64,000 nt of DNA from Solirubrobacterales bacterium (GTDB taxonomy: Bacteria; Actinomycetota; Thermoleophilia; Solirubrobacterales; 70-9). Positions 25,004-28,449 of the stretch are shown in pieces. The stretch lies in NCBI GenBank assembly GCA_021155855.1, contig JAJNAZ010000012.1, positions 1-64,000 on the forward strand, read 5' to 3'. Below the pieces are notes generated by a model. The model had not been told where the DNA came from, made no database searches, and saw only the letters and a program-made list of their open reading frames with translations. The number at the start of each line of letters is the position of its first letter. The stretch's first letter is position 1. The position numbers were made by a program, and so were the translations under genes.

Positions 25004-25900
25004 GTGCGCGTCCTCGCGATCTTCGGCCCGACTGCGGTCGGCAAGACCGGGGTCGCGATCGAGCTCGCCGACCAGCTGCGCGAGCGCGGCGAGGATCCGG
25101 TGGCGATCTCCTGTGACGCGATTCAGATCTACCGCGGATTCGAGGTCCTCTCGGGAGCGGCGACCGCCGAGGAGCGGGCGCGGCTCGAGCACCGGCTGCT
25201 CGGGATCGCCGAGCTCGACGAGGAGTTCTCCGCGGGTCGCTTCGCCGAGCTCGCTCACGCCGAAATCGACGCCCTGCTCGCCGAGGGCCGGCGGCCGATC
25301 GTCGTCGGGGGGGCCGGCCTCTACCTGCGCGCCGCTTTGGCCGAGCTGGACCTGCGCCCACCGGTCCCAGCGGCGGTCCGCGCCGCGGTCGAGGCGGAGG
25401 TCGCCGATCGAGGGCCGCAGGCGCTGCATGCCGAGCTTCCCGACGAGCTTGGCTCCGGTGTGCACCCCAACGACCGCAAGCGGATCGTCCGCCTGACCGA
25501 GCTCGCGCGCCTCGGGATCGCCGCGCATCCCTCGAGCTCCGGGCTGTGGGGCGAGGGCATGCGGGTGCCGACGCTACTGGTCGGGCTGACCGCCGACCGC
25601 GACGAGCTGCGGGCGCGGATCGAGGCCCGGGCCGATGAGATGGTGAGGCTGGGCGCGGTGGACGAGGTGCGTAGCGCGGATCTCGCAGGAGCCCGGCGCA
25701 CGGCCCGCGCGGCGATCGGCTTCGACGAGCTCCTGGGTGGCGACGCGGAGGCGATGAAGCGCGCCCAGTGGCGCTTCGCGCGCCGCCAGCTCACGTGGAT
25801 GCGACGGATGGAGGACGTGACGCAGCTCGACCGCACCGGGCGCCGGAACGCCGACGTCGCCGCCGAGATCGTCTCCCTGCTCGACGTCGCCGAACGATGA
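25004..25900 (+). CDS. miaA: tRNA dimethylallyltransferase
   Basis: MiaA transfers the dimethylallyl group to A37, making the substrate for MiaB. The 298-residue protein has the P-loop GPTAVGKTG (8-16), SCDAIQIYRG, VGGAGLYLRAAL and a C-terminal RRQLTWMRRM tRNA-binding segment. The usual DSxQVY is DAIQIY here, a mild variation. GTG 25004 is 8 nt after the miaB stop. A TAGTCT box, which includes the miaB TAG, ends 5 nt before it. miaB-miaA-dapF linkage is typical of Actinomycetota. Confidence 0.96.
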   Translation: MRVLAIFGPTAVGKTGVAIELADQLRERGEDPVAISCDAIQIYRGFEVLSGAATAEERARLEHRLLGIAELDEEFSAGRFAELAHAEIDALLAEGRRPIVVGGAGLYLRAALAELDLRPPVPAAVRAAVEAEVADRGPQALHAELPDELGSGVHPNDRKRIVRLTELARLGIAAHPSSSGLWGEGMRVPTLLVGLTADRDELRARIEARADEMVRLGAVDEVRSADLAGARRTARAAIGFDELLGGDAEAMKRAQWRFARRQLTWMRRMEDVTQLDRTGRRNADVAAEIVSLLDVAER

Positions 25901-26367
25901 CGGCGATCGACCTGGTTTATGAGCTGAACTCGCTCTTCGAGAGCCACGACTTCACCTCCTTGCGCGACGCGCTCGAGGCCTCGGAGGCGAACGCGATCAG
26001 CTCCGGTCTCACCGGCGCCGACGCCCTGGTCCGCGAATCCCTCACCGATCGGGTGGTCGTCGAGTTCAACGGCGCCACCGCGCCGCCGGAGGGGCGCCGC
26101 TACGTCGGCCTCGACGCATACCTGAAGCTCTGGCGCCAGTGGCTGGCGGCGTTCGACGAGTACGAGCTCGAGCACTCCGGCTACGAACAGGTGGGCGCCA
26201 ACGTCCTCGTCGCGGTGACCCACCGCGGGCGCGGCCGGGGGAGCGGCCTGCCGGTCGAGCTCCCGCAGTTCCAGCGCTGGGTGGTCCGCGACGGCCGCGT
26301 GTACGAGATCCACATCTACGAGCGCCGCGAGCAGGCGCTGTCGGACCTGCCCGCGGGCAACGAATAG
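25897..26367 (+). CDS. NTF2/SnoaL-like domain protein
   Basis: The 156-residue protein overlaps the miaA stop by 4 nt (ATGA). It has the NTF2-like pattern: N-terminal helices (LVYELNSLFESHDF), RYVGLDAYLKLWRQWLAAFDEYE and strands ANVLVAVTHRGRG and WVVRDGRVYEIHIYE. It is conserved in fold only. No catalytic residue set is recognisable and function is unknown. The genetic coupling suggests co-translation with miaA rather than a shared pathway. Confidence 0.82.
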   Translation: MTAIDLVYELNSLFESHDFTSLRDALEASEANAISSGLTGADALVRESLTDRVVVEFNGATAPPEGRRYVGLDAYLKLWRQWLAAFDEYELEHSGYEQVGANVLVAVTHRGRGRGSGLPVELPQFQRWVVRDGRVYEIHIYERREQALSDLPAGNE

Positions 26368-26377
26368 CCTCCGACCG

Positions 26378-27217
26378 GTGCGCTTCGAGAAGTGGCAGGC
26401 GCTGGGCAACGACTACGTGATCGTCGAGCGCGACGCGCTGCCCTGGGAGCTGAGCGAGGAGCGGATCCGGCGCATCTGCGAGCCACACTTCGGCGTCGGC
26501 TCCGACGGCATCCTGCTGCTGGCCCGACCGCAGGACGAGCGTTACGTGGCCGAGCTGCGGATCTTCAACCCCGACGGCTCGGAGGCCGAGCTGTCGGGAA
26601 ACGGCGCGCGCGAGGCGGTGCTCTACCTGCGCGCGTCCGGCTGGACCGAGGAGGACACGTTCACGATCGTCACCAGGGCGGGGGAGCTGACGCCCACGAT
26701 CACCGGCCCGGACGAGGTCTCGATGGCGATCGGGCGGGCGTCACTGAGCTCGCCCGACTATCCGTCGGGCCCCCCCGAAGGTACCGGGACGCTGAGCGCC
26801 GGCAGCCGACGGTGGAGCTTTCGCCATGTCAACGTCGGCAACCCGCAATGCGTGGTCGATGTCGGTGACGAGATCGAGACGCTGGACATCGGTTCCGTCG
26901 GCCACGAGTTCGAGAACCACTCGCTGTTCCCGAACCGCACCAACGTCTCCTTCATCCGCGTCGAGGGCTCCAGGGTCCGGGCGCGAATCTTCGAGCGCGG
27001 CGTGGGGGAGACGCTCTCCTCGGGGACCGGCGCGAGCGGCGCCGCGGTGGCCGCCTTCCTCGACGGCGTGGCGAGCCCGATCACGGTCGTTCTCGACGGA
27101 GGCAAGCTCGCGGTCGAGATCACCGACGAGCTCGACCTGACCCTGATCGGCTCCGCGACTCGGGTCTACTCCGGAGAGCTCGACGGCGGCTTCGTCGGGG
27201 CCCTCGCCGCGGCGTGA
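26378..27217 (+). CDS. dapF: Diaminopimelate epimerase homologue with both catalytic Cys replaced by Ser
   Basis: The 279-residue protein has the two-lobed DapF fold. Substrate-binding residues are retained: Asn11 in LGNDYV, Asn in FNPDGSEAE, VNVGNPQCV and FERGVGET. The two thiols that abstract and donate the alpha-proton in known DapF enzymes are missing. The usual CGNGAR(C) motif reads SGNGARE, with Ser73 at the position of E. coli Cys73. The usual A-C-G-(S/T)-G-A-C motif reads S-S-G-T-G-A-S, with Ser215 at the second catalytic position. Codons are unambiguous (TCG at 26594 and 27020). It is embedded in a DAP gene context next to a dapL-like gene. It may be altered in mechanism, altered in substrate, or inactive. 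Confidence 0.9.
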   Translation: MRFEKWQALGNDYVIVERDALPWELSEERIRRICEPHFGVGSDGILLLARPQDERYVAELRIFNPDGSEAELSGNGAREAVLYLRASGWTEEDTFTIVTRAGELTPTITGPDEVSMAIGRASLSSPDYPSGPPEGTGTLSAGSRRWSFRHVNVGNPQCVVDVGDEIETLDIGSVGHEFENHSLFPNRTNVSFIRVEGSRVRARIFERGVGETLSSGTGASGAAVAAFLDGVASPITVVLDGGKLAVEITDELDLTLIGSATRVYSGELDGGFVGALAAA

Positions 27218-27276: not shown

Positions 27277-28449
27277 ATGGCGCTCACCGATCCCTGCAAG
27301 CGGCTGGAGGCCATCCCGCCTTACATGTTCGCCGAGCTCGAGCGCAAGGTCGCGGCCAAGCGCGAGGCCGGAATCGATGTGATCAGCCTCGGCATCGGCG
27401 ACCCCGATCAGCCGACCTACCCGCACGTGATCGAGGCAATGCAGGCGGCGGTGGCCGATCCGGGCACCCACCGGTACCCCTCCAACCGCGGCCGGGCCGA
27501 GTTCCGGGACGCGTTCGCGGGCTTCTACGAGCGCCGCTTCGGGGTCGAGATCGATCCCGAGACCGAGGTGATCCCGGCGATCGGCGCCAAGGAGTGCATC
27601 TACAACCTCTGCTTCGCCTTCCTCGACCCAGCCGACGTGGCGCTCGCCTCCGATCCGGGCTACCCGATCTACACCGGCGGACCTCTGCTGGCCGGCGCCG
27701 AGGCGGCCCTGATGCCGCTCCTCGGTGAGCAGGGGTTTGCCCCGAACCTCGACGCGATCGCCGCCGACGTGCTCGAGCGCGCGCGACTGATGTTTCTCAA
27801 TTACCCCAACAACCCGACCGGGGCGGTCGTCCCCGAGGGTCTGTTCGAGCGGGCGGTGGAGCTGGCGCACGCGAACGAGGTCTTGGTCGTCCACGACAAC
27901 GCCTACTCGGAAACGACCTTCGACGGCTACGTCGCGCCCAGCTTCCTCGCCACGCCGGGGGCGAAGCAGGTCGGGGTCGAGGTCTTCTCGCTCTCCAAGG
28001 GCTTCAACATGACTGGCTGGCGCTGCGCGGCGATCCTCGGCAATCCCGACGCGATCGCCGCCTACTGGCGCCTGAAAACGAACGTCGACTCGGGCCTGTT
28101 CGAGGCGGTGCAGCTCGCCGGCGCCGCGGCGCTCAACGGACCGCGGCGCGCAATCGACGAGATGAACGGCGTCTATCAGCGCCGCCGTGACCTGGTCGTC
28201 GGGGCGCTGCGCGAGATCGGCGTCGAAGTGAGTCCCCCGCGCGGGACGATCTACGTCTGGGCGCCGGTCCCCGAGGGGCACACCTCGTCCTCGTTCGCCG
28301 AGCTCGTGCTCGAGCAGGCGGCGGTGGTGATCTCACCGGGCTCGATGTACGGGCCGAGCGGTGAGGGCTTCTTCCGGATCTCGCTGACCACCCCCGACGA
28401 CCGCCTCGCCGAGGCCGTCGAGCGAATGCGCGAGCACCTCGCCCCGTGA
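27277..28449 (+). CDS. LL-diaminopimelate aminotransferase-like PLP enzyme
   Basis: The 390-residue fold-type I aminotransferase begins CKRLEAIPPYMFAELERKV and VISLGIGDPDQPTYPHV, which closely resembles LL-DAP aminotransferases (DapL) and related class I/II enzymes. It has NYPNNPTG, YSETTFDG, the PLP-lysine in SLSKGFNMTGWR and the C-terminal Arg in FFRISLT. DapL converts tetrahydrodipicolinate directly to LL-DAP; succinyl-DAP aminotransferase is the main alternative. ATG 27277 is preferred over GTG 27214 because of the family N-terminus and a TAGCCT box ending 10 nt upstream. Its place after dapF supports a DAP role. Confidence 0.85.
   Translation: MALTDPCKRLEAIPPYMFAELERKVAAKREAGIDVISLGIGDPDQPTYPHVIEAMQAAVADPGTHRYPSNRGRAEFRDAFAGFYERRFGVEIDPETEVIPAIGAKECIYNLCFAFLDPADVALASDPGYPIYTGGPLLAGAEAALMPLLGEQGFAPNLDAIAADVLERARLMFLNYPNNPTGAVVPEGLFERAVELAHANEVLVVHDNAYSETTFDGYVAPSFLATPGAKQVGVEVFSLSKGFNMTGWRCAAILGNPDAIAAYWRLKTNVDSGLFEAVQLAGAAALNGPRRAIDEMNGVYQRRRDLVVGALREIGVEVSPPRGTIYVWAPVPEGHTSSSFAELVLEQAAVVISPGSMYGPSGEGFFRISLTTPDDRLAEAVERMREHLAP

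Follow-up and report, generated by a model that had tools for sequence, protein, structure and literature searches.

The gene at positions 26378-27217 of a 64,000-nucleotide stretch of DNA from a Solirubrobacterales bacterium (class Thermoleophilia; GenBank assembly GCA_021155855.1, contig JAJNAZ010000012.1, positions 1 to 64,000, hereafter the window) encodes an orthologue of diaminopimelate (DAP) epimerase, DapF, in which both catalytic cysteines are replaced by serine. We propose that this protein is probably the DAP epimerase of these cells and that it works through the serine pair, its activity being suggested by its status as the sole copy, its conservation, its genomic context and the demand for its product. 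The features of the gene are as follows.

26378-27217, plus strand: dapF orthologue with a Ser/Ser active site; 279 amino acids, GTG start; identified by TIGR00652, PF01678 in both halves and an AlphaFold2 model
26594-26596, plus strand: Ser73 (codon TCG), position of the first catalytic cysteine, from alignment to solved DapF enzymes
26846-26848, plus strand: Gln157 (codon CAA), position of the active-site histidine (GNPH changed to GNPQ), from column comparison
27020-27022, plus strand: Ser215 (codon TCG), position of the second catalytic cysteine, from alignment to solved DapF enzymes

A DapF orthologue without the catalytic thiol pair

The protein carries the motifs SGNGAR (residues 73-78) and SSGTGAS (residues 214-220). 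It scores 195.1 bits against the DapF equivalog model TIGR00652 (cut-off 114.65) and 139.3 against PF01678 (cut-off 34.7), both halves being matched, and has no match to PF05544, the proline racemase superfamily. The catalytic cysteine columns of solved DapF enzymes align with Ser73 and Ser215, and the thiol pair is therefore absent, as an earlier note on this DNA, made from the sequence without database searches, had proposed. That note missed the change of the active-site histidine to Gln157.

The AlphaFold2 model, for which the alignment consisted of the window's protein and those of the collected loci, has a mean predicted local distance difference test (pLDDT) value of 96.1. When the model was searched with Foldseek, the top 26 PDB matches were all DapF or O-ureidoserine racemase, with template modelling (TM) scores of 0.69-0.89; the matches include the Haemophilus influenzae DapF mutants C73S and C217S, and PhzF and hydroxyproline epimerases rank next. 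Ser73 and Ser215 are predicted to directly precede the two central helices (residues 74-86 and 216-228), the same placement that the cysteines have in DapF.

The protein is a DapF orthologue as judged by its sequence, fold, substrate pocket and context, but it lacks the thiol pair and the histidine, the catalytic features by which the characterised enzyme is defined. With canonical DapF (TIGR00652; H. influenzae, Escherichia coli, Corynebacterium glutamicum, Anabaena) it shares fold, length, substrate-contact residues, a dapL neighbourhood and the position of sole copy in the DAP/lysine pathway, but serine in place of both cysteines and glutamine in place of histidine make thiol chemistry impossible at this site. 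We therefore call it a Ser/Ser orthologue of DapF and not a standard DapF; it most likely works as DapF does, but with another pair of acid and base.

Distribution and conservation of the serine pair

DapF loci were gathered from relatives, from named GTDB genomes and from further genomes of the order, the named matches including Conexibacter arvalis DSM 23288, Conexibacter sp. DBS9H8 and Svornostia abyssi. The 155 distinct sequences comprise 136 Ser/Ser, 15 Cys/Cys and one Ser/Cys protein, and three that were unscored at both columns, two of which were afterwards read as Cys/Cys. All 116 distinct sequences from Solirubrobacterales are Ser/Ser, and another 20 Ser/Ser sequences come from families f7 and f8 of the same class. 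Nineteen additional loci from the order, some overlapping the first set, are also Ser/Ser, including that of the complete Conexibacter woesei genome. The clade-wide occurrence that the earlier note had suggested looking for is seen in the alignment, and it does not extend to the whole class: every member read of families f6, f9, f10 and f11 is Cys/Cys, as are those of f5 apart from a single Ser/Cys protein (L077). Sequencing or assembly error is ruled out, since Ser/Ser recurs in complete genomes and in a total of more than 130 distinct sequences.

Within the order, serine is the majority residue in 16 columns, of which only 73, 191 and 215 are invariant. The serine codons at the two catalytic columns are mixed (TCG, TCC, TCA, TCT, AGC, AGT), which together with the constant residue indicates that the residue is kept while its codons drift. 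N11, N64, N155, N189, E206, R207, G216 and T217 are invariant, as are the G-N-G and G-T-G motifs at the helix N-ends; the Asn and Arg/Glu substrate-binding motifs, described as preserved in the earlier note, are among these residues. The substrate-contact roles of the Asn, Glu and Arg residues are those of the H. influenzae enzyme, in part as documented in PMC12039745.

The histidine of GNPH is glutamine in 116 of 116 sequences from the order; it is kept in the Ser/Ser proteins of f7 and f8 and in all Cys/Cys sequences of the class (14 Cys/Cys orthologues compared). Further order-specific changes near the pocket motifs are Glu to Ser191 and Ala to Gly221. The later cysteine of each loop, whose absence had also been pointed out, is indeed lost, but this is not special to the Ser/Ser proteins, because in Cys/Cys relatives from the class the cysteine after GNGxR is missing as well, and in some of them so is the second. 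Decay to a pseudogene is ruled out by conservation, the serines being fixed and the substrate residues invariant.

Genomic context and the demand for meso-DAP

Two neighbours of the gene are conserved.

27277-28449, plus strand: dapL, LL-diaminopimelate aminotransferase, which acts immediately before DapF in the pathway; NF006756, 533.7 bits (cut-off 507)
25004-25900, plus strand: miaA, conserved upstream neighbour; TIGR00174, 147.7 bits, just under the cut-off of 148.65

The dapL product scores below the cut-off of a second model, TIGR03540. The order miaA-dapF-dapL is common to Cys/Cys and Ser/Ser loci; dapL adjoins dapF in most loci and lies on the opposite strand in some. This shared arrangement indicates that the Ser/Ser gene is a vertical DapF orthologue, and horizontal replacement by a paralogue is accordingly unsupported. 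A SnoaL-like gene at 25891-26367, which overlaps the end of miaA and lies directly before dapF, is found only in the window and in one close relative (L005/L117).

A whole-genome search of the genome holding the window (G000; 2.83 Mb, 75 contigs, 96% complete) found no second PF01678 gene, so that the protein is the only DapF there, as the earlier note had supposed might be the case. Among 31 genomes of the order and two of f8 that were searched, only G094, a Solirubrobacterales genome, has a second copy. This gene (L075:1980-2807) is a very divergent Cys/Cys DapF-like gene with 35% identity to the window's protein; it may be contamination, or may encode an amino-acid racemase with another specificity. 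Meso-DAP dehydrogenase (Ddh, PF16654) was sought in 32 genomes of the class and is absent from 31 of them, G000 and C. woesei among these; replacement by this enzyme is rejected since only G028 carries one. Neither G000 nor C. woesei has a proline racemase (PF05544). A role of the Ser/Ser protein as glutamate racemase is likewise rejected, as both genomes have MurI and the absence of MurI is not tied to Ser/Ser: no MurI over the TIGR00067 cut-off was found in the class genomes G051, G052, G071, G227 and G191, some of them single contigs, and G191 is Cys/Cys.

The product appears to be required. The genes lysA and murE are present in all 32 genomes tested across the class, and the DNPR motif of DAP-adding MurE occurs in 26 of 30 MurE loci, including those of G000 and C. 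woesei. A meso-DAP cell wall has been reported for C. woesei and, according to the same paper, for all Solirubrobacterales (PMC3035278), and meso-DAP has been reported for Solirubrobacter (PMC10722151). The complete genome taken to be that of C. woesei (G111) has one PF01678 gene, which is Ser/Ser with GNPQ, as well as lysA and a DAP-type murE, and it has no Ddh. This organism therefore combines a meso-DAP product with a Ser/Ser enzyme only, and with no known alternative route among those sought.

Origin of the Ser/Ser state

When the two catalytic columns were left out of the alignment, the resulting trees required two changes to Ser/Ser: f7 groups with the Cys/Cys family f9, and the order together with f8 groups near the Cys/Cys family f6. 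A single Ser/Ser origin was recovered in 0 of 200 bootstrap trees, and was not rejected by the approximately unbiased (AU) test (p 0.15-0.28). On these phylogenies two origins within the class are likely. The earlier note had spoken of two independent changes, which is correct for the two positions; in the phylogenetic sense two origins look likely, while the AU test keeps one. The Ser/Ser DapFs of f7 (L094-L113) retain GNPH, mostly have SGTS or SGSS rather than SGTG after the second catalytic residue, and in many cases are shorter, with frames of about 230-260 amino acids; they are remodelled differently from those of Solirubrobacterales.

A pattern search located DapFs with Ser73 and Cys217 in a number of other Actinomycetota families, and there is one such protein within the class. 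They are L235, L236 and L237 (f70), L238-L242 (f54), L244 (f25), L299 (f18) and L077 (f5). These orthologues share the serine at position 73 with the window's protein, but keep Cys217 and the histidine of GNPH, and judging from their sequences they are probably a separate, recurrent variant. Together with a natural Ser/Cys epimerase, described below, their occurrence in other families suggests that the first cysteine can be replaced more than once. Loss of both cysteines may then have come about by continuing along this path after the first had been replaced.

A proposed serine-pair DAP epimerase

The presence of a sole, strictly conserved copy in a conserved context, in cells that require its product, leads us to read the Ser/Ser protein as a working DAP epimerase. 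It would take LL-DAP, which the enzyme encoded by the adjacent dapL supplies, and convert it to the meso-DAP that LysA and MurE use. The two-sided 1,1-proton transfer would proceed as usual, except that two hydroxyl groups, those of Ser73 and Ser215 at the N-ends of the central helices, would take the place of the thiols and presumably serve as acid and base. The change of histidine to glutamine would imply that the first serine is activated otherwise than in the Cys/His arrangement. We can only guess at a benefit, which could be immunity to the disulfide and peroxide inactivation that shuts off thiol DapF; in C. glutamicum DapF, peroxide leads to a disulfide between the two cysteines that turns the enzyme off (PMC5296763). 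The earlier note held that, with this as the only DapF, meso-DAP synthesis would need another explanation, and the best answer seems to us to be that the Ser/Ser enzyme itself carries out the reaction.

The wider proposal is that a cofactor-independent, cysteine-free epimerase with two serines is found throughout the order, probably evolved twice within the class, and is coupled in the order to loss of the histidine. It would amount to a two-base mechanism free of thiols for a reaction that is held to depend on thiolates, the two cysteines being regarded as indispensable in all relatives tested. Of this we are somewhat less sure, although we lean towards it. No earlier report of a Ser/Ser DapF was found in the open-access literature, and as far as that literature shows it would be the first such epimerase without a catalytic cysteine.

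Known systems offer partial parallels. A natural Ser/Cys 4-hydroxyproline 2-epimerase has the same overall fold and is active with serine in the first catalytic position, a residue to which a catalytic role has been assigned (PMC4113996). It differs in that only one cysteine is replaced and in its substrate and family, and its serine is held in place by Asn at the third residue after it, a position taken by Gly in the window's DapF. In the natural, active Thr/Cys aspartate/glutamate racemases a hydroxyl residue also replaces one catalytic cysteine, but these have another fold, retain the other cysteine and are reported to be unidirectional (PMC8142540). The engineered DapF proteins C73S and C217S (PDB 2q9h, 2q9j) hold serine in the same position of a solved fold; they are single laboratory replacements with the histidine kept, whereas the state in the window is natural, double and fixed throughout the order.

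Several observations weigh against a serine-pair epimerase. Cys-to-Ser mutants of PddB keep less than 0.1% of activity, and the same paper cites like results for Mycobacterium tuberculosis DapF (PMC8225329); the activity of HisR mutants is greatly reduced (PMC11602996). The histidine, which is glutamine in Solirubrobacterales, has been described as essential for catalysis (PMC5885031). We found in the literature no Ser/Ser member of the fold with demonstrated racemase or epimerase activity, and the characterised Ser-Thr member is a dehydratase (PMC4113996). Finally, the organism of the window is represented by an uncultured genome, and the data on meso-DAP in the wall come from its cultured relatives.

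The main rival to this reading is an inactive DapF beside another epimerase, in which the Ser/Ser protein would have lost its epimerase activity and would serve only in binding, in sensing or as a partner of another protein such as DapL. Meso-DAP would then come from an unrelated enzyme, which could be an epimerase, a racemase or a D-specific aminotransferase. Such an arrangement would accord with the near-complete loss of activity in engineered Cys-to-Ser mutants and with the glutamine found throughout the order, and there is a precedent for a second role in E. coli DapF, which doubles as a partner of RppH (PMC4227774), and structures of which are among the fold matches. In addition, the racemase searches covered only MurI, which is present in G000 and C. 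woesei, PF05544 and PF01678. In a dead site, however, one would expect drift towards Ala, Gly or Thr, and serine is fixed in 136 of 136 sequences with the full substrate pocket invariant; Ddh is missing from all but one of the genomes tested for it, a second DapF from nearly all of those searched, and G000 and C. woesei lack a proline racemase. We consider this explanation unlikely.

It is improbable, in our view, that the protein is an active enzyme for a different substrate or reaction, such as an elimination or the epimerisation of another amino acid. DapF relatives switch substrate easily (HisR, PddB, O-ureidoserine racemase), and in the proline racemase superfamily the proteins with a Ser/Thr or a Thr/Cys pair are dehydratases (PMC4113996). 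Yet the DapF substrate-contact residues are unchanged, the synteny with dapL is kept and the TIGR00652 score is well over the cut-off, and the cell would be left with no known route to the meso-DAP found in its relatives. The earlier note had argued for selection towards a new mechanism or substrate rather than decay; conservation agrees with it on the latter point and a changed mechanism is likely, but synteny with dapL, the presence of lysA and murE, and meso-DAP in cultured members speak against a new substrate.

A third alternative, which we regard as very improbable, is an active DAP epimerase in which the serines are not the bases, and an ordered water or the conserved Glu206 transfers the proton while the serines position that group. 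The changes of His to Gln, Glu to Ser191 and Ala to Gly221 do show a rebuilt active site, and PhzF keeps the fold and uses a carboxylate. The absolute conservation of exactly these two hydroxyls, which face the substrate from the N-ends of the helices, nevertheless argues for a direct role, as in the serine-pair epimerase proposed here.

DapF is a textbook case of a thiolate abstracting a proton of very high pKa from an amino acid, and work on covalent inhibitors has been aimed at its cysteine pair. If the serine-pair reading is true, a natural, essential, widely conserved Ser/Ser DapF would show that the thiol pair is not required and that the reaction can run without sulfur, and would make it possible to study, in a clean setting, how serine is tuned by an enzyme for such chemistry. 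It would also predict organisms on which thiol-directed DapF inhibitors have no effect and whose lysine and cell-wall synthesis withstands oxidative inactivation. Should the protein be inactive instead, there must be a new meso-DAP-forming enzyme throughout an order of common soil bacteria, so that either outcome would be new.

Other observations in the class

Seven genomes of the class (G217, G218, G220, G209, G197, G041 and G234) have neither a PF01678 gene nor a dapL orthologue, the best dapL matches being 27-30%, and G170, which has no DapF, has only more distant dapL matches of 39-41%. Both lysA and murE are present in the three DapF-less genomes tested (G217, G220 and G197). In these genomes the locus may be missing, or they may use another DAP route. 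Two Cys/Cys DapFs of f10 carry insertions of their own: L088 (G219) has an Ala/Thr-rich loop inserted before RMRILNPDG, and L090 (G216) has a PQVAPQVA repeat between the domains.
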